From Bacteroidota bacterium (lineage in GTDB: Bacteria; Bacteroidota; Bacteroidia; 2-12-FULL-35-15): a stretch of 64,000 nt of DNA. Within the stretch, counting starts at the first letter, position 1, and each line of letters opens with the position of its first letter. This document shows, piece after piece, positions 46,874-54,954 of the stretch. The translations under genes were made by a program, and so were the position numbers. The stretch is from the NCBI GenBank assembly GCA_029237775.1, contig JAQZBR010000001.1:1-64000 (forward strand), written 5' to 3'. Below the pieces are notes generated by a model. It had not been told where the DNA came from. It saw only the letters and a list, made by a program, of their open reading frames with translations, and did not search any database.

Positions 46874-46891
46874 TTTCCTATCTGTCACCAA

Positions 46892-49696
46892 ATGAAAAAA
46901 ATAATTCTTCACACTGTTTTTCTTAGTTTTTGCTTCTCAACGGTGCTTAATTCACAACCTTTTTTTAAACGGTACGATAGTGTTGAAGTAAGGATCAATT
47001 CTTCTTATATAACTAACCCCTGGGCGGGCGGATTGAATTTCGCGCAAAACTCCGCGATCGATCTTAATCAGGATGGCATAAAAGATCTGTTCACTTTTGA
47101 CAAAACAGGGAATAAGGTCCGGACCTTCATTAACCATGGCACGCCTAACACCGTAGATTATAAATATGATGCATCTTACGAAAGTAAATTCCCGAAATTG
47201 CAGGAATGGGCATTGCTTCATGATTACAACAACGATGGTAAAGAGGATATTTTTTCGTACTCCTGGGTAGGGGGCGGTTTCGATGTTTACAAGAACATAT
47301 CAACTATTGCCGGTGGACTTGCTTTCCAACTTGTGATGACGCAGCAAAAATCGATTTATAACCCAAGCCGTTTCAGTAATGCCAGCGCAAATGTCCCTAT
47401 TCCCGATGCCGGTGTGTCCGCTTCCTGGGATGGAAACTCCGGAACCTTTGCAAGCCTTCCTATCAATGTTACTTCTTTACTTAATAACAACTGGCATTTC
47501 AGTTCTGTTCTTCTGAACATCAATCACCCGAATACAGACGACCTGACCGTTTACCTCGTCAACCCTTGCGGAAATAAAATCAAACTGATAAAAAATGCAG
47601 GTGGAAGCGGTGACAATTTTACCAATACAGCCTTCGAGCCGGCCTTAACAAATATCATCGGAAGCGTGGGCAACAATACCGCACCGTTTTCAGGAAGTTA
47701 TGCTCCCGAGGCCGGACAAGCGGCATGGCCCGCTTTTTTAAATTGTGCTTCTCCAAACGGGCCATGGACATTGAGAGTGGGTGATCAAACTCCCGGCAAT
47801 ACGGGTACATTAACAAACTGGTCGATCTCATTCTACTCCCCTACTAATACTGCACCTTATGGCTTAGTGAACCTCTTCGTAAGCTCCGTTGATATTCCCG
47901 CTTTCAGCGACATTGATAACGATGGCGACACTGATGTAGTGACATTTGCCATAACAGGTTCATTCATGGAATATCACCAGAATCAGAGCATGGAGATTTA
48001 CGGGGTTCCGGATAGCCTTGTGTTCGCTTTAAAAAACCCTTGCTGGGGCTATGCTTCAGAAGATGCCATGAGCAATGATTATACCCTTCATGCAGCTTGT
48101 CCTTACACCAACGTTTCAAATCCAGGCATTATAGAAAACAATAATTCTGAGCCCGATCGTTCAGGGGAAAGGCATTCAGGCTCCTGCCAGCTTTGCCTGG
48201 ACCTCGACAATGATGGAGATAAGGAATATGTGGTTGGGGATGTCTCCTATCCAAGTCTTACAATGCTCACAAATGGTGGTACTCCGCGAGCAGGGATCTT
48301 TTCCGCTAGGGATACAGCCTTTCCTTCCAACAACAGCAATACGCTGCCAGTTGATCTTACTTTGTTTCCCTGTGCATATTACCTTGATGTAAATAATGAT
48401 GGATTAAAAGACCTGATCGTGAGCCCCAATGCACCAAATGCATCTGAGAATTTCAACTCCCAGGTTTTTTATCAGAACACAGGAACAAATACGCAACCTG
48501 TGTTTGATTACATACAGTCGAATCTCTTACAGGATAATATGATAGAGGTTGGAGAAGGTGCATATCCCGTGTTTTTTGACTATGATAACGATGGATTGAA
48601 AGATCTTTTTATTGGAAATTATGGATACTATGCTGCAAACGGATTTCAGCATAAAATAGCGCAGTTCAAAAATACAGGAACTGCAAGCGAACCAAAATTC
48701 GAACTCATTACCCGTGATTATGATGGTTATGACGGAACCCATGTGCCTTTTAGTTCTTCCTCGTACAACATCACGAACATGGTTCCTGCATTCGGTGATC
48801 TGGATATGGATGGCGATGCCGACATGATCATCGGAGGTGCTGACGGGCGGCTGCACTATTTTCAGAATATCGCAACGGCAGGGAGCATTGCTAATTTCGT
48901 TCTTACGCAGGCTAACTTAAAAAACTCTTCAGGACGACTGATTGACGTGGGCGACTATGCCGCACCGCAAATTTTTGATGTTGATAATGATGGAAAGAAT
49001 GATATCATTATCGGATCAAGCTCCGGCCGTTTAAGTTACTTTCATCACACTGGAAGTGTGACATCTTCGGTTCCGCGTATGGACTCAATCACCAATTTCC
49101 TGGGGAAATTCCGCGTAAACCAGCCGAACTATTTCACAGGATATAGCTTTCCCTTCATGTTCAGGGAGGCGGGCAACACTAAGTTATTATGCGGTACGCA
49201 ACTCGGCTATCTAAGGAAGTATGGAAACATTGATGGAAACTTAACCGGAACATTTACCCTTAATGACTCCACTTACTTAAATATACGGGAGGGAGAACGC
49301 ACTGCACTTTGTGGCGCAGATGTGAACAATGACGGCCTGATGGATGTGGTGATTGGAAATTATCAGGGTGGTGTTGCATTTTATAAAGGAGTGAATTCAT
49401 TGGTCACAACAGGAGACGTAAATTCTCTCAACCATTGGAATATGGAAGCGTTCCCGAATCCCTCAAACAATTTATTGAACATTATCATCACGAATGATCT
49501 TCCGGGTAATTACAGAATTGACATTTTTAATATGTTAGGGCAATCTGTTTTGAATCAACAATTCGCAACTAATTCGATAACATTGAACACTTCGCAACTT
49601 AAGCAGGGAATTTATCTTTGCAAAGTTTCCGAGCTGAATGAAACCGGGGCCATTAAACCCGGCTCATTGGTAAAACGTATCGTTATCCAGCATTAA
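46892..49696 (+). CDS. T9SS type A secreted FG-GAP/VCBS-repeat protein
   Basis: The 934-residue protein has a signal peptide (ends LNSQP). FG-GAP/VCBS-type units with DxDxDG-like calcium loops recur throughout (about nine, for example DLNQDGIKD, DYNNDGKED, DIDNDGDTD, DVDNDGKND). A proprotein-convertase P-type domain (about 160-320, LNINHPNTDDLTVYLVNP, GTLTNWSISFYSP) is inserted among them. The C terminus is a type A T9SS sorting domain (MEAFPNPSNN, YRIDIFNMLGQSV, LNTSQLKQGIYLCKV). It is a predicted cell-surface or secreted calcium-binding beta-propeller protein. The ATG at 46892 is supported by the -7 box; a TTG at 46871 would add seven residues. Confidence 0.88.
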   Translation: MKKIILHTVFLSFCFSTVLNSQPFFKRYDSVEVRINSSYITNPWAGGLNFAQNSAIDLNQDGIKDLFTFDKTGNKVRTFINHGTPNTVDYKYDASYESKFPKLQEWALLHDYNNDGKEDIFSYSWVGGGFDVYKNISTIAGGLAFQLVMTQQKSIYNPSRFSNASANVPIPDAGVSASWDGNSGTFASLPINVTSLLNNNWHFSSVLLNINHPNTDDLTVYLVNPCGNKIKLIKNAGGSGDNFTNTAFEPALTNIIGSVGNNTAPFSGSYAPEAGQAAWPAFLNCASPNGPWTLRVGDQTPGNTGTLTNWSISFYSPTNTAPYGLVNLFVSSVDIPAFSDIDNDGDTDVVTFAITGSFMEYHQNQSMEIYGVPDSLVFALKNPCWGYASEDAMSNDYTLHAACPYTNVSNPGIIENNNSEPDRSGERHSGSCQLCLDLDNDGDKEYVVGDVSYPSLTMLTNGGTPRAGIFSARDTAFPSNNSNTLPVDLTLFPCAYYLDVNNDGLKDLIVSPNAPNASENFNSQVFYQNTGTNTQPVFDYIQSNLLQDNMIEVGEGAYPVFFDYDNDGLKDLFIGNYGYYAANGFQHKIAQFKNTGTASEPKFELITRDYDGYDGTHVPFSSSSYNITNMVPAFGDLDMDGDADMIIGGADGRLHYFQNIATAGSIANFVLTQANLKNSSGRLIDVGDYAAPQIFDVDNDGKNDIIIGSSSGRLSYFHHTGSVTSSVPRMDSITNFLGKFRVNQPNYFTGYSFPFMFREAGNTKLLCGTQLGYLRKYGNIDGNLTGTFTLNDSTYLNIREGERTALCGADVNNDGLMDVVIGNYQGGVAFYKGVNSLVTTGDVNSLNHWNMEAFPNPSNNLLNIIITNDLPGNYRIDIFNMLGQSVLNQQFATNSITLNTSQLKQGIYLCKVSELNETGAIKPGSLVKRIVIQH

Positions 49697-49700
49697 TAAT

Positions 49701-49708
49701 TACATTTG
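49701..49708 (+). promoter_or_regulatory. -7 box abutting the His/Cys-rich gene
   Basis: TACATTTG fits TAnnTTTG but ends only 6 bases before the ATG at 49714, so RNA would start at about the first codon. Either the mRNA is nearly leaderless or the match is chance. No -33 element was found at the right spacing. Confidence 0.35.
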
Positions 49709-49713
49709 CACCG

Positions 49714-50028
49714 ATGCAAAAAAGAGTAAAAACATATTTATCCGTTTTTCTTTTATTCCTGTTCCTCTTTCCTATGGCAGAGAAACAGGTGCATGCATTT
49801 AATCATCACACGGATGAACATTGCTCTTCCAGTGACAAACATTTTCACGAAGAAGAACATAGCTGCAACATCTGCGATTTTAATTTCACCGATTCTGCTC
49901 TTTGTCCTGAGGATGAAATTTCATTTTCTCTTGCTGTAATTTCTTCTGACTACAACACTTATTCTGAAAACAATTATTCAGAAAAAGCCTTCTATCTTCT
50001 TTCCTCCCGAGGACCTCCCCGCGCTTGA
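49714..50028 (+). CDS. secreted His/Cys-rich mini-protein, possible metal handling
   Basis: The 104-residue protein has an N-terminal signal sequence or membrane helix (about 7-22). Residues 27-54 hold seven His (27, 31, 32, 36, 43, 45, 49) and three Cys (37, 51, 54), the last two as CNIC. The remaining half is acidic and beta/loop-like, ending SSRGPPRA. Small exported H/C-rich proteins just before TonB receptors suggest metal sensing or scavenging, but this is inference. The start is near a -7 box, and the downstream TonB receptor gene begins 65 bases after the stop on the same strand. Confidence 0.65.
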   Translation: MQKRVKTYLSVFLLFLFLFPMAEKQVHAFNHHTDEHCSSSDKHFHEEEHSCNICDFNFTDSALCPEDEISFSLAVISSDYNTYSENNYSEKAFYLLSSRGPPRA

Positions 50029-50092
50029 TCTTTAAAGTTAATCCTGAATGCATATCAGGAAAAATCGTCTTTAAACATCAATTTTTTCTAAA

Positions 50093-52531
50093 ATGAAAAT
50101 TTACATTCATTGCATTTTTGCAATACTCTTTTTATATATTACTACGAACGCATTTTCTGCAGATGAGCGTAAAGGGAAAACTACCTTAACGGGAAAAATA
50201 ACAGATAAACAAACGGGGCTGACAGTTCCCGGTGCAGGAATCTACTTTCCGGATATCAAGACTGCAGCTGTAAGTAATGCAGAGGGTGTATATTTTATCG
50301 ACAACCTTCCTCAGTCAAGGCTCCTAATACAAGTGAGTTTCGTAGGGTATAAAACCATAATCGAAACTATTGATCTTTCCACCACCACGCAAAAGGATTT
50401 TGCGCTTGAAATTTCTGTGAAAGAAATCAATGAAATAGTGATCACCGGTCATTCACAAGCAGGGGAAAGAAATCGAACACCGACTCCAATTTCCCTGATA
50501 TCGAAATCTGAGCTTACACAAAACACCTCAACAAATATTATTGACGCAATCGCGAAACAGCCGGGAATTTCGCAAATCACGACAGGTTCAGGAATATCCA
50601 AACCTGTTATCCGCGGCCTTGGCTACAACAGGGTTGTCCTTGTAAATGATGGCATCCGTCAGGAAGGACAACAGTGGGGAGATGAACATGGAATTGAGAT
50701 AGATGAGTTTTCAGTGAACCGGATTGAGATCCTGAAAGGCCCTGCAAGCTTATCATACGGCTCCGATGCGATTGCAGGTGTTATTAATATTCTGAGCCAG
50801 GTCAATGTCCCGCAGGGAACTATTAATGGCGGATTAATTGCCGATTATCAAACCAACAATGGCTGTATGGCTTATTCTGCAAATATTGCAGGCAACATGA
50901 AAGGAATGATCTGGAATGTGAGATACAGCAATAAACTTGCGCATGCCTATCATAACAAATATGACGGTTATGTTTATAATTCCGGCTACAAAGAAAATAC
51001 GGTAAGCGGGATCATTGGTGTCAACAAAGCATGGGGATATTCCCATCTGCATTTCAGTGTCTATGATTTCATTCCGGGATTGATAGAAGGAAACAGAGAC
51101 AGCGCAAGCGGAAAATTCACTAGGGAATTTGTAAAAGATGACAGTGTTATCATCAGTGAAATCGTACCTGAAGAAGATCTGAATTCTTATGACATCCGCT
51201 TACCCTTTCAGAAAATCCTACATTATAAAGCGATACTAAACAACAGTTTTGTTGTTAAGAACGGCAGCGTCAAAACCGTTCTCGGCTTTCAGCAAAACCA
51301 GCGTAAAGAATTCGGTGATGTAATTAATCCTGACAGGTTTGGCCTGTACTTTTTTATGAATACAGTAAACTATGATCTGCGATATATTCTGCCAGAAAGG
51401 AATGGATGGGACATATCTTTTGGTGTAAACGGGATGCAGCAGCAATCACAAAATAAAGGTACCGAATTTTTAGTTCCTGAATATTCCCTGTTTGATATCG
51501 GGGGATTTACGATCATAAAAAAAACGTTAGGTAAATTTGACTTTGCTGGTGGTGTTCGTTATGACAGTCGTCTACAGCAAACAAAAGACCTTTACCTGAA
51601 CGCACAGGATGAAATCTCAAATGCAAATGACACCGGAGCATATCAGAAATTCACCGGTCTTTCAAAAAATTTTAAAGGCATTTCGGGAAGCCTGGGTGCA
51701 ACTTATCAGGTAAACGACAAATTATTTTTTAAAGCAAATGCGGCAAAAGGATATCGTGCACCAAATATTGCAGAGCTTGGAAGCAATGGGCAACATGAAG
51801 GAACAATGCGATACGAAATAGGAAATGCTTATCTGAAACCGGAAAGTAGTTTTCAGCTTGATCTTTCAGCAGGCATAAATACTGAGCATGTCAGCGCTGA
51901 AATAGATCTTTTCAGCAACACCATCAGTGATTTTATTTTTTCGCGAAAACTAAACTCTCAATCAGGAAGTGATTCAATCAGGGACGGAGCAATAGCATTT
52001 GAATTTGTTTCGGGGAAAGCAAACTTGAATGGTGGCGAGATCATGATCGATATTCATCCGCACCCACTCGACTGGCTGCATTTTGAAAATTCCTTTTCAT
52101 ATGTTCAATCTGAACAAAAAGGAGTGCCCGACTCCACCAGATATCTACCGTACACGCCACCGGCCAAACTTCAATCAGAATTAAAAGCAGATATAAAAAA
52201 GACGGGTAAATTCATGAGCAACACATTTATTCAGTTTGGAATGGAAACATATTTTGAACAGGATAAATTCTATTCAGCCTATCAAACTGAAACAGCAACT
52301 CCGGGATACACTTTACTGAATGCTGGTATCGGGACAACTTTCGTTTCGGGAACAACAACTCTTTGCACAGTAATAATCAATGCAAACAACATTACTGATG
52401 AAGCTTATCAAAGTCACCTCAGCAGATTAAAGTATGGAAATATAAATTATGCAACCGGAAGAACTGGTGTTTTTAACATGGGGAGAAATTTTAATTTCAA
52501 ACTTATTATTCCATTAAGCTTTAAGAAATAA
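50093..52531 (+). CDS. TonB-dependent outer-membrane receptor
   Basis: The 812-residue protein has a signal peptide (ends TNAFSAD), a carboxypeptidase regulatory-like domain (about 28-110), a plug domain (about 120-240, VIRGLGYNRVVLVNDGIRQEG, VNRIEILKGPASLSYGSDAIAGVINIL) and a 22-strand type barrel ending NFNFKLIIPLSFKK. It would take up a scarce substrate across the outer membrane with TonB energy. The His/Cys-rich gene upstream points to a metal or metal complex, though the substrate is unknown. No TonB, ExbB or ExbD gene is in the window. No promoter was seen in the 65-base gap to the upstream gene. Confidence 0.9.
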   Translation: MKIYIHCIFAILFLYITTNAFSADERKGKTTLTGKITDKQTGLTVPGAGIYFPDIKTAAVSNAEGVYFIDNLPQSRLLIQVSFVGYKTIIETIDLSTTTQKDFALEISVKEINEIVITGHSQAGERNRTPTPISLISKSELTQNTSTNIIDAIAKQPGISQITTGSGISKPVIRGLGYNRVVLVNDGIRQEGQQWGDEHGIEIDEFSVNRIEILKGPASLSYGSDAIAGVINILSQVNVPQGTINGGLIADYQTNNGCMAYSANIAGNMKGMIWNVRYSNKLAHAYHNKYDGYVYNSGYKENTVSGIIGVNKAWGYSHLHFSVYDFIPGLIEGNRDSASGKFTREFVKDDSVIISEIVPEEDLNSYDIRLPFQKILHYKAILNNSFVVKNGSVKTVLGFQQNQRKEFGDVINPDRFGLYFFMNTVNYDLRYILPERNGWDISFGVNGMQQQSQNKGTEFLVPEYSLFDIGGFTIIKKTLGKFDFAGGVRYDSRLQQTKDLYLNAQDEISNANDTGAYQKFTGLSKNFKGISGSLGATYQVNDKLFFKANAAKGYRAPNIAELGSNGQHEGTMRYEIGNAYLKPESSFQLDLSAGINTEHVSAEIDLFSNTISDFIFSRKLNSQSGSDSIRDGAIAFEFVSGKANLNGGEIMIDIHPHPLDWLHFENSFSYVQSEQKGVPDSTRYLPYTPPAKLQSELKADIKKTGKFMSNTFIQFGMETYFEQDKFYSAYQTETATPGYTLLNAGIGTTFVSGTTTLCTVIINANNITDEAYQSHLSRLKYGNINYATGRTGVFNMGRNFNFKLIIPLSFKK

Positions 52532-52579
52532 TAAATTTTTACAACCTGTATATCATAGTGTCAGAAAATATATCTTCAT

Positions 52580-52587
52580 TACCTTTG
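52580..52587 (+). promoter_or_regulatory. possible -7 box of the CnaB-like lipoprotein gene
   Basis: TACCTTTG fits TAnnTTTG and would start RNA near 52594, 3 to 9 bases before the candidate ATGs (52597 and 52603). No -33 element is seen, so the gene may instead be read from the receptor transcript. Confidence 0.35.
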
Positions 52588-52602
52588 AAGAAAACCATGA
52601 CG

Positions 52603-52971
52603 ATGTTAAAATTCAACTTTAGATATTTACTTATCCCTGTTTTTTTAATTCTTTTAATTGGCTGTCGCAAGGAAGGTACCGGAGGGAAATCAGCTGTAAG
52701 CGGAACTGTCATGCATCATGAAAAGATAATTCCCAATGCAGTTGTTTACATAAAATATGGTGCTAAAGAGCTGCCAGGAACTGAAGGTTCATCCTACGAT
52801 GCGTCAACAACGGCAGATGCAAACGGTCATTATGAATTTAAAGACCTTCGTAAAGGGGATTATTTCCTTTACGGAATTGGAATTGATGGTCAGGAAATAG
52901 TGAAAGGCGGAATTTCAATAAACTTAAAATATAACAAGGAAAAATCGGTCGATGTCCCTGTAACTGAATAA
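52603..52971 (+). CDS. CnaB-like/carboxypeptidase-regulatory lipoprotein
   Basis: The 122-residue lipoprotein has a lipobox LLIGCRKEG and then one carboxypeptidase regulatory-like beta-sandwich (AVSGTVMHHEKIIPNAVVYIKYG, TADANGHYEFKDLRKGDYFLYGI). It is predicted to sit on the outer membrane facing the periplasm or surface. It follows the TonB receptor gene by 71 bases, so it may help that system. The frame is open to a GTG at 52558, but the signal peptide fits ATG 52603 (or 52597) better. A hairpin terminator follows. Confidence 0.7.
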   Translation: MLKFNFRYLLIPVFLILLIGCRKEGTGGKSAVSGTVMHHEKIIPNAVVYIKYGAKELPGTEGSSYDASTTADANGHYEFKDLRKGDYFLYGIGIDGQEIVKGGISINLKYNKEKSVDVPVTE

Positions 52972-52992
52972 AGCTTCTCAGCCTAGATTTGC

Positions 52993-53020
52993 AACACTCT
53001 TCATTTGAAGAGTGTTTTTA
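52993..53020 (+). terminator. terminator of the TonB-receptor unit
   Basis: A perfect 10-bp stem AACACTCTTC/GAAGAGTGTT (52993-53002 with 53007-53016) around ATTT is followed by TTTAT. It lies 21 bases after the lipoprotein stop. Its loop overlaps the -33 element of the next promoter. Confidence 0.85.
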
Positions 53021-53033
53021 TTTCGTAACTTTG
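53004..53033 (+). promoter_or_regulatory. promoter of the cytochrome/propeller gene
   Basis: TTTG (53004-53007), 18 bases and TAACTTTG (53026-53033) fit the Bacteroidota promoter. RNA would start near 53040, 11 bases before ATG 53051. It is nested within the terminator hairpin. Confidence 0.6.
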
Positions 53034-53050
53034 AGAATCAACGGTTGTTC

Positions 53051-54514
53051 ATGAAGATCTCTCTGAAAAAAGTTTCCTATATTTTATTCTCATTTTTTTG
53101 CTGCAGCTTATTCATTACATGCAGCAATGAAAAAGGTATTCCTGATTACAACAGCTATCCTGATGATGTCGGGAAATTAATATTCACCAAATGTGCCACT
53201 TCCGGATGCCATAACGAGCAGAGTAAGGCAGCTGCAGCAGGATTGTCTTTGCAAAGCTGGGATGATCTGTTTAAAGGTGGAAACAGCGGGCCTGCAGTGA
53301 TTCCATACCGGAGTGATTACAGTACACTGTTCTATTTCACAAATACTTTTTCAGACCTGGGTGTCACGTTGAAACCAACAATGCCTTACAACAAACCGGC
53401 ATTATCAAGAGAAGAAGTGTTAATGCTGAAGAACTGGATAGATGCTGGCGCTCCAAACCGGGATGGCGTTGTCAAATTTTCTGATGACCCTTCGCGCAAA
53501 AAATATTATGTAACCAATCAGGGATGTGATGTTGTTACGGTATTTGACCAACAAAGCGGATTGCCTATGAGATATATTACTGTCGGGCAATCGGGCTCGA
53601 CAGAGTCACCACATGCTGTTAAAGTTTCACCTGATAAGAAATACTGGTTTGTTTTATCTCTTAACGGAAGTTATCTTGAAAAATATAATGCTGTTGATGA
53701 TTCCTATGCCGGCCGTGCTTATATAGGTGCCGGGTACTGGAACGCTTTTACCATTTCACCCAATTCACAAAAAGCTTATTGCACTGACCTGTCATCATCG
53801 GGTAAAGTTGCAACAGTAGATCTTAATACTTTAACCTGTGATACGATCCGGGGCTTTTCGTTTCCTCATGGTATAGCTGTGAATGCTTCCGGTGATACGT
53901 TATTGGTAACGCAACAAATTGGAAGCAGCAAGCTTTATAAGATCCCTGCATTTGATTTTTTCGGCACGAGCGAAATCAATTTATTCTCCACGCCACCATC
54001 CTTGCCTCTTAATCCTCATGAAGTTGTTTATTCACCAGACGGCTCGAAGTATTATGTATCCTGTCAGGGTACAAATGAAGTTCGCGTATTCTCAAGCGGC
54101 ACAGATGCATTCATCACCAGCATTGCAGTCGGAACCTCTCCTACGGAAATGGCATTTTCCAATTCATCTCCTTATCTTTTTGTTTCCTGTACAGAAGATG
54201 AAACTAATTTCCCCGGTAAACGAGGCTCCGTGGCAGTGATCAATTATCAGACAAACACTTTAATAAAATATATCTACGCGGGATGGCAGCCGCATGGTAT
54301 AGCGGTTGACGATGCTAAAAAACTTGTGGTTGTCGGAAACAGAAACTATGCTATGGATGGCCCATCACCTCATCATGCAGGAGAATGTGGAGGCAGGAAC
54401 GGGTATATCACTTTTATAAATATCACTACCCTGAGTATGGTAACACTCCCCGGTAGTTCTTCTGCCAAAAAAATTGAAGTTTCTGTAGACCCTTACTCCA
54501 TAGGGATCAGGTAG
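53051..54514 (+). CDS. lipoprotein with CX4CH haem motif and YVTN-type beta-propeller
   Basis: The 487-residue protein has a lipobox (LFITCSNEK), a c-type cytochrome-like domain (about 30-145) with C48-ATSG-C53-H54 and a distal Met segment (TMPYNKPALSREEV, NWIDAGAP), then a beta-propeller (about 155-480) with YVTN-like blades (YVTNQGCDVVTVFDQQSG, YYVSCQGTNEVRVFSSG). The haem motif is CX4CH rather than CXXCH. It is probably surface or periplasmic and may take part in electron transfer or metal/ligand binding. The start at 53051 is fixed by promoter and lipobox; the frame is open to 53012. The stop is 2 bases from the convergent neighbour's stop. Confidence 0.78.
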   Translation: MKISLKKVSYILFSFFCCSLFITCSNEKGIPDYNSYPDDVGKLIFTKCATSGCHNEQSKAAAAGLSLQSWDDLFKGGNSGPAVIPYRSDYSTLFYFTNTFSDLGVTLKPTMPYNKPALSREEVLMLKNWIDAGAPNRDGVVKFSDDPSRKKYYVTNQGCDVVTVFDQQSGLPMRYITVGQSGSTESPHAVKVSPDKKYWFVLSLNGSYLEKYNAVDDSYAGRAYIGAGYWNAFTISPNSQKAYCTDLSSSGKVATVDLNTLTCDTIRGFSFPHGIAVNASGDTLLVTQQIGSSKLYKIPAFDFFGTSEINLFSTPPSLPLNPHEVVYSPDGSKYYVSCQGTNEVRVFSSGTDAFITSIAVGTSPTEMAFSNSSPYLFVSCTEDETNFPGKRGSVAVINYQTNTLIKYIYAGWQPHGIAVDDAKKLVVVGNRNYAMDGPSPHHAGECGGRNGYITFINITTLSMVTLPGSSSAKKIEVSVDPYSIGIR

Positions 54515-54516
54515 TG

Positions 54517-54954
54517 TTATTTTTTTTTCGGGTATTTAAATCGGACTACTTTTTTTTCATAATCAATCACAGCATTGTATTTTAAAAGAATGTCACTTCC
54601 AAGAACTCCTTCAACGGGTTTTAATCCTATTTGCTGATACGAACTGTTCACGTGTGAAAGATCAAGAAGCACGGTTGTATAATCCAAAACCAACAGGTCA
54701 CCCATCAACAGTTTTTTTAAAATCGTTGTATGACTTTCCATAGTGTTTGTTCCCAGACCGCTGGAAAGCTTATCATGTATTTTAAAATCGCTTTCCTTCA
54801 CATATTTTGAAACACGGGATTTATCAAGTACGGTTTTAGAAGCACCTGTATCGATAATAAGTTGTGCCGTTTTTCCATTGATCTTTACTTTCAGCATAAG
54901 GTGAAAGCCTTCAGCGTCAAGAGTCAGAATTTTAAAAGGTACTGTAGTAACCAT
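54517..54954 (-). CDS. retropepsin-like aspartic protease
   Basis: The 145-residue protein carries the single-site retropepsin motif IDTGASKTVLD (D35-T36-G37-A38) and the second-half strand with GVLGSDILLKYNAVIDY, as in the PF13650/gag-asp family. It has no signal peptide and would form a homodimer, as known for retropepsins. The function is unclear. The gene overlaps no other and starts just after the mdh terminator, so it is probably expressed by read-through or an unseen promoter. Confidence 0.82.
   Translation of the reverse strand: MVTTVPFKILTLDAEGFHLMLKVKINGKTAQLIIDTGASKTVLDKSRVSKYVKESDFKIHDKLSSGLGTNTMESHTTILKKLLMGDLLVLDYTTVLLDLSHVNSSYQQIGLKPVEGVLGSDILLKYNAVIDYEKKVVRFKYPKKK

Follow-up and report, generated by a model that had tools for sequence, protein, structure and literature searches.

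The question raised by this locus is whether a small His/Cys-rich protein, encoded directly before a TonB-dependent receptor, carries a metal to that receptor or controls its expression. The window (the whole stretch of 64,000 nucleotides that was analysed) holds four plus-strand genes in a row, encoding the mini-protein, the receptor, a small lipoprotein and a lipoprotein with a CX4CH motif. A first-pass annotation had described these four genes as one possible metal or cofactor uptake locus, and all four were recovered at the same coordinates (Table 1).

Table 1. Coordinates of the genes, motifs and predicted regulatory elements of the locus in the window.
Feature	Position	Strand	Remark
−7 element TACATTTG	49701..49708	+	Bacteroidota TAnnTTTG type; 5 nt 5' of the mini-protein ATG
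Mini-protein gene	49714..50028	+	104 aa; hydrophobic export signal at the N-terminus; proposed leader (uORF) of the metal-sensing arrest-peptide type
Putative metal-ligand segment of the mini-protein	49792..49875	+	H27-x3-H31-x5-C37-x5-H43-x7-C51-x2-C54; invariant in the 24-sequence alignment
R99-G-P-P102 codons	50008..50019	+	Proposed ribosome-arrest motif; 2 residues before the protein end
Predicted RNA stem-loop in the gap	50025..50081	+	5' arm includes the mini-protein stop; U6 (50082-50087) and then the receptor start lie 3' of it
TonB-dependent receptor, ZnuD-like	50093..52531	+	812 aa; without a promoter element of its own
E198-H199 codons	50684..50689	+	Counterpart of the ZnuD plug-loop zinc ligands Asp99-His100; alignment to 4rdr
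H568 codon	51794..51796	+	Counterpart of the ZnuD zinc ligand His499; alignment to 4rdr
−7 element TACCTTTG	52580..52587	+	Before the small lipoprotein (neighbouring module)
Small CarboxypepD_reg-like lipoprotein	52597..52971	+	Partner of the propeller gene; judged outside the mini-protein/receptor unit
Intrinsic terminator 3' of the small lipoprotein	52993..53016	+	
−7 element TAACTTTG	53026..53033	+	Before the propeller gene
Lipoprotein, PSCyt1-type CX4CH cytochrome domain and beta-propeller	53051..54514	+	Judged outside the unit

Gene content and transcription units

The domain search gave the receptor a Plug domain (PF07715, 74.6 bits), a barrel (PF00593, 100 bits) and a CarbopepD_reg domain. 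The small lipoprotein showed a weak CarboxypepD_reg/SdrD_B match, and the last gene a PSCyt1 match of 25.6 bits (cut-off 22) together with NHL/YVTN propeller repeats; its haem motif reads C-A-T-S-G-C-H. The mini-protein gave chance matches only in Pfam and NCBIfam (Nodulin_late, 0.005). Upstream of it, positions 46889-49696 encode an FG-GAP protein with a proprotein-convertase P-domain and a type IX secretion tail, the stop of which lies 17 nt 5' of the mini-protein ATG; homologues of this protein adjoin the mini-protein upstream in many same-genus loci, with no evident functional link. On the other side of the four genes, a single-domain clan-AA aspartic protease gene (54517-54954, minus strand) is kept beside a malate dehydrogenase gene in several same-genus loci.

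Elements of the TAnnTTTG type were observed before the mini-protein, lipoprotein and propeller genes, but none upstream of the receptor; 2% of random 60-nt stretches of the window have one. Among 101 homologous loci, 40 had the element no more than 45 nt from the start of the mini-protein gene, usually at a distance of 3–14 nt, where 3.3 would be expected; before the gene that follows the mini-protein it was absent in all 84 cases. As the promoter element precedes the first gene and none precedes the next one, the small ORF appears to carry the promoter and the receptor to depend on it. The element positions thus point to a transcription unit made of these two genes. The separate promoter that had been proposed for the propeller gene agrees with its −7 element, whereas the proposed transcript of genes one to three is doubtful, because the lipoprotein gene has a −7 element of its own.

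This bears on the idea of a single four-gene system for a metal or cofactor, in which reduction or sensing of the imported metal would fall to the CX4CH lipoprotein. The genes share a strand and adjoin one another in the window, and at least 10 same-genus genomes have the propeller gene no more than about 17 kb from the mini-protein gene. However, separate promoters and a terminator divide the genes. The propeller was found in 35 of 59 relatives; in the remaining propeller-bearing ones it lies far from the mini-protein gene or on another contig, and it also occurs in genomes in which no mini-protein homologue was found. It pairs with the small lipoprotein and not with the receptor: the two recur as a pair, in many cases accompanied by a CDFCGC-x-MGITPYDNQS protein and in some by MbnP and MauG-type genes. 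The nearness of the propeller to the mini-protein gene is local synteny and no evidence of joint function, and a single four-gene system is very unlikely.

The family that starts with ...CDFCGC[FY]MGITPYDNQS adjoins the lipoprotein/propeller pair in locus L031 (9004-10140) and has counterparts in L032, L035 and L049. It showed no Pfam match and is possibly an outer-membrane protein with a Cys cluster.

The mini-protein family and its known counterparts

A single-sequence search of 148 related genomes detected strong homologues of the mini-protein in most same-genus members and, at lower scores, further ones across many families of the class; with the alignment as query, 55 of 395 genomes of the phylum had matches. 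By these matches the 104-residue protein belongs to a Bacteroidota-wide family; the 27 loci from the closer alignment come nearly all from metagenome assemblies labelled Bacteroidetes or Bacteroidota. Across 24 aligned homologues, 26–50% identical to the window protein, H27, H31, C37, H43, C51, C54, R99, P101 and P102 were invariant. The His/Cys-rich stretch singled out by the first-pass annotation is therefore not a chance composition, and the C-terminal RGPP, which had gone unmentioned there, is equally part of the family pattern. By inspection, the window protein and all 24 aligned homologues begin with a basic and then hydrophobic N-terminus.

In the window the layout is CXXC-44-RGPP-2-stop. 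The spacing from CXXC to R[AGS]PP was 43–45 residues in 79 of the 87 homologues (out of 101) in which it could be measured, and the residues in between are unconserved. Of 101 homologues, 98 had R[AGS]PP 2–5 residues before the protein end, a count biased toward the motif because the profile was built from RxPP-containing sequences; RxPP was also present in the first hits of the single-sequence search. Several more distant homologues (L081-L086, L089) lack the second Cys of CXXC and keep R[AG]PP and the receptor, giving a natural variant of the putative sensor site. Another locus (L040, 5992-9389) showed a doubled leader, with one TonB receptor flanked by two mini-protein genes, each with a downstream gene.

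The closest published parallel is CruR of Bordetella pertussis (BP2923, DUF2946), an exported leader upstream of the bfrG/crtA TonB receptor (PMC9426467, PMC12992588). In CruR, 45 residues separate CXXC from RAPP, which stands three residues before the C-terminus; when the nascent chain senses copper, the arrest is relieved, and Rho then ends transcription before the receptor (PMC9426467). The arrest was seen in vitro with the first Pro of the motif in the P site, and RGPP was the strongest arrest motif (EMBO J 2025, PMC12992588). Leaders with RAPP or RGPP linked to TonB receptors occur throughout Gram-negatives (PMC12992588). Like CruR, the mini-protein is first in a TonB-receptor operon, is predicted to be exported, and carries CXXC and, two to five residues before the C-terminus, R-A/G-P-P, with a spacing of 44 residues against 45. 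Unlike CruR, it has extra invariant His and Cys residues, a zinc-type receptor and zinc neighbours, and its gap to the receptor is A/T-rich and 64 nt long, compared with 162 GC-rich nt.

The DUF2946 profile (PF11162) matched above cut-off in 0 of 59 relatives. Its sub-threshold matches fell on the mini-protein ORFs with the C-terminal end of the profile aligned, and weak DUF2946 Pfam matches were seen in 7 of 24 homologues (best E 0.0018). By analogy, the mini-protein most likely works like CruR; with no DUF2946 match above the cut-off, the likeness is not taken as evidence of common descent.

CutF of Rhodobacter capsulatus works in a related manner via a stem-loop; it carries CxxxC and activates a copper oxidase on copper addition, and the published list of CutF-like proteins already includes many Bacteroidota proteins, zinc being undiscussed there (PMC9973294). 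With CutF the mini-protein shares its small size, predicted export, a metal motif, a C-terminal PP motif, a position directly upstream of the gene that would be regulated, and a stem-loop in the gap. It differs in its CXXC and in its target, an uptake receptor. The SecM, ApdA, ApdP and RQH family of RAPP/RGPP arrest peptides controls sec/yidC genes and senses export (PMC10987492, PMC12992588); its members, too, are exported leaders with a C-terminal R-[AG]-P-P, but the mini-protein adds a putative metal site and has a metal receptor as its proposed target. The earlier remark that this was not a described system is accordingly half right: the regulatory principle has been published, while the zinc context was not found in the papers that could be searched.

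An export signal, a His/Cys-rich segment and an operon shared with an uptake receptor would also suit a metal-binding chaperone, mature and either periplasmic or secreted, that passes metal to or from the receptor. This is how the first-pass annotation had understood the mini-protein; RGPP would then be coincidental. Such a role leaves unexplained why R-x-P-P is invariant so near the stop, why the spacing stays at 43–45 residues over an otherwise unconserved stretch, and why promoters are found before the leader only. Moreover, CruR and CutF were undetectable as stable exported proteins (PMC9426467, PMC9973294). We consider the chaperone quite improbable. Because the CXXC-spacing-RxPP layout and the operon with a TonB receptor match CruR, the mini-protein most likely serves as a regulatory leader that acts as an arrest peptide, not as a metal shuttle.

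The receptor, the downstream genes and the metal

Among 102 mini-protein loci (window included), a same-strand gene followed within 450 nt in 100. A TonB receptor was present in the downstream gene string in 86 loci and was the immediate next gene in 67; of the receptor-less loci, most head other zinc genes. Homologues scattered away from TonB receptors, which would have spoken against the proposed link, were thus not the pattern observed, and the assignment as a metal-uptake locus was upheld with the mini-protein and receptor as its conserved unit. The expected recurrence beside TonB receptors was found, but that beside CX4CH propellers amounted to local synteny.

The best solved-structure match of the receptor was ZnuD, with 70 bits compared with 48 bits for PhuR. 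In ZnuD of Neisseria meningitidis the zinc ligands are Asp99, His100 and His499, with Glu340 as the fourth (PDB 4rdr, PMC4557270). The window receptor shares the plug and barrel and matched three of the four ligands, with E198, H199 and H568 at the places of D99, H100 and H499; E198 is conservative for Asp99, and the Glu340 region fell outside the local alignment. It differs from ZnuD in an extra N-terminal CarbopepD_reg domain and in scoring below the NCBIfam cut-off, and ZnuD has no known arrest-peptide leader. The 86 receptors linked to mini-proteins had E or D at the first plug site in 80, H at the second in 80 and H at the His499 site in 72; [DE]H plus H was retained in 71. Within the genome of the window, which has 19 TonB receptors, only the window receptor has the ZnuD-ligand residues and only it has an upstream RxPP leader.

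The subfamily scores could be taken to mean that haem or an iron chelate is the substrate of the receptor and that the leader senses iron, haem or the redox state. The best NCBIfam scores were those of haemoglobin/hemin receptors (160 and 151 bits), higher than that of ZnuD (NF038289, 97 bits, cut-off 950), and the genome encodes one Fur-family regulator. All of these scores are below cut-off, the haem-receptor scores far below, and the same cause had led to ZnuD itself being initially annotated, wrongly, as a haem receptor. ZnuD gave the best structural match, and the downstream clusters that were examined showed no gene family for haem or iron. Haem or iron is the least probable of the readings considered here.

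The sole Fur-family regulator found in the genome (contig C8, 128126-128485) lies beside a STAS-domain protein gene and purA. Searches of the same genome, 97% complete, gave no ZnuA, which counts against the zinc reading. Canonical Zur boxes (TGTTATA-n-ATAACA types) were unenriched upstream of the leader; Zur sites of Bacteroidota may differ.

Genes behind the homologous leaders were mainly of zinc type. ZnuA-ZnuB followed the leader in five loci (L047, L062, L123, L136, L137), with an ABC ATPase between ZnuA and ZnuB in the last three, and a ZigA-type GTPase in four (L056, L060, L101, L109; 539 bits). An AztD-like protein came after the receptor in five loci (L099, L100, L102, L103, L104; 3e-23). 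Five further loci (L090, L092, L098, L115, L124) had ABC-2 transporters with DUF3526 permeases, which, by analogy only, recall the Zur-regulated znuGHI genes of Caulobacter (PMC4176598). Copper-related targets were confined to two sister species (L032, L042), where MbnP and a di-haem CCP/MauG gene of MbnH type stand directly behind the receptor; this pair lies far from any methanobactin genes seen.

Two other protein types were observed in these gene strings. An unclassified protein of about 390 residues lies between the leader and ZnuA-ZnuB in all five ZnuA-ZnuB loci; one such protein was searched, without a Pfam or NCBIfam match, and an outer-membrane location, as a new outer-membrane zinc component, is possible. 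In 15 loci (including L034, L045, L046, L049, L057, L065 and L079-L081), where the leader precedes a second receptor subtype, that receptor is followed by a lipoprotein of about 190 residues; it has no Pfam match and is a candidate zinc-binding partner.

The MbnP/MbnH neighbours had made copper our first reading, which was demoted by the ZnuA-ZnuB, ZigA and AztD-like genes and by the aligned ZnuD ligands. Copper would leave the leader-peptide mechanism unchanged, the metal being sensed and imported as in Bordetella CruR-BfrG. CXXC is a classical copper site, and mixed His/Cys sites are common for zinc. All experimentally studied relatives sense copper (PMC9426467, PMC9973294), and CruR operons also carry MbnPH-like genes (PMC9426467), as do L032 and L042 after the receptor. 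However, copper-linked RAPP leaders were reported absent from Bacteroidota (PMC12992588), the receptor is ZnuD-like with three of the four ligands matched, homologous leaders in several families are linked to zinc genes, and the conserved site comprises CXXC plus four or more His/Cys. Copper is therefore unlikely. We consider that the metal is probably zinc, not the copper of the known relatives, because the receptor resembles ZnuD in its ligands and alone among the 19 combines these with an RxPP leader, because homologous leaders head zinc genes and AztD-like genes follow receptors, and because the conserved site mixes His and Cys rather than offering CXXC alone.

Proposed regulation and its meaning

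The gap between leader and receptor is predicted to fold with −15.4 kcal/mol (z −3.2), a value reached by 3 of 200 shuffles, and the stem-loop is a possible attenuator or lock on the initiation region. The mean z was −2.02 in the genus of the window, and the closest relative (L031) showed a comparable arrangement with a different sequence. Over 85 loci, gaps of the family showed no excess of structure over control gaps (mean z −1.48 and −1.20, respectively). A conserved RNA structure of the gap is unsupported family-wide, though the fold of the window itself is significant.

Taken together, the sequence comparisons make it probable that the mini-protein is a regulatory leader of the CruR/CutF type, with the ZnuD-like receptor as its target in one transcription unit, and that a metal, most likely zinc, would control a ribosome stall. 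We infer the arrest, the metal binding, the direction of control and the attenuation or occlusion output. When the metal is scarce, the ribosome would stall on RGPP near the end of the mini-protein, and the receptor would be expressed. By analogy with CruR, the first Pro of RGPP (50014-50016) would be the P-site codon, which would place the leading edge of the stalled ribosome at about 50030, so that the stop codon and the base of the stem-loop would be covered.

When the metal is sufficient, it would bind the His/Cys segment of the nascent chain. This segment ends 47 residues before the P-site residue and should lie just outside the exit tunnel. Zinc-driven folding, or export held up by the metal, may pull on the arrested chain and change the arrest; the gap would then form the stem-loop, or Rho would act, and the receptor would be shut down. 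This output step could be attenuation, Rho-dependent termination or an occluded start region. The metal should turn the receptor off, since the receptor is an uptake receptor.

A wider reading is plausible but falls a little short of probable. It holds that a zinc-sensing nascent arrest peptide controls zinc uptake in Bacteroidota, acting on ZnuD-type receptors and, in certain lineages, on operons of ZnuA-ZnuB or ZigA. Such a peptide would be a translational counterpart of Zur, the first zinc arrest peptide and the main zinc switch of the window genome, in which a single Fur-family protein was found and the leader lacks a canonical Zur box upstream. No report of a nascent chain that senses zinc was found in the literature that could be searched, and within that literature the zinc link and the extended His/Cys sensor of the Bacteroidota branch appear new.

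Zinc control in Bacteroidota is poorly described. If the proposal is true, the zinc regulon of the phylum would gain a sequence signature (His/Cys motif, 44 residues, R[AG]PP, stop), and zinc receptors could easily be told from look-alike haem receptors by their leader ORF. The locus would also offer a testable case of metal-driven co-translational folding on an arrested ribosome.
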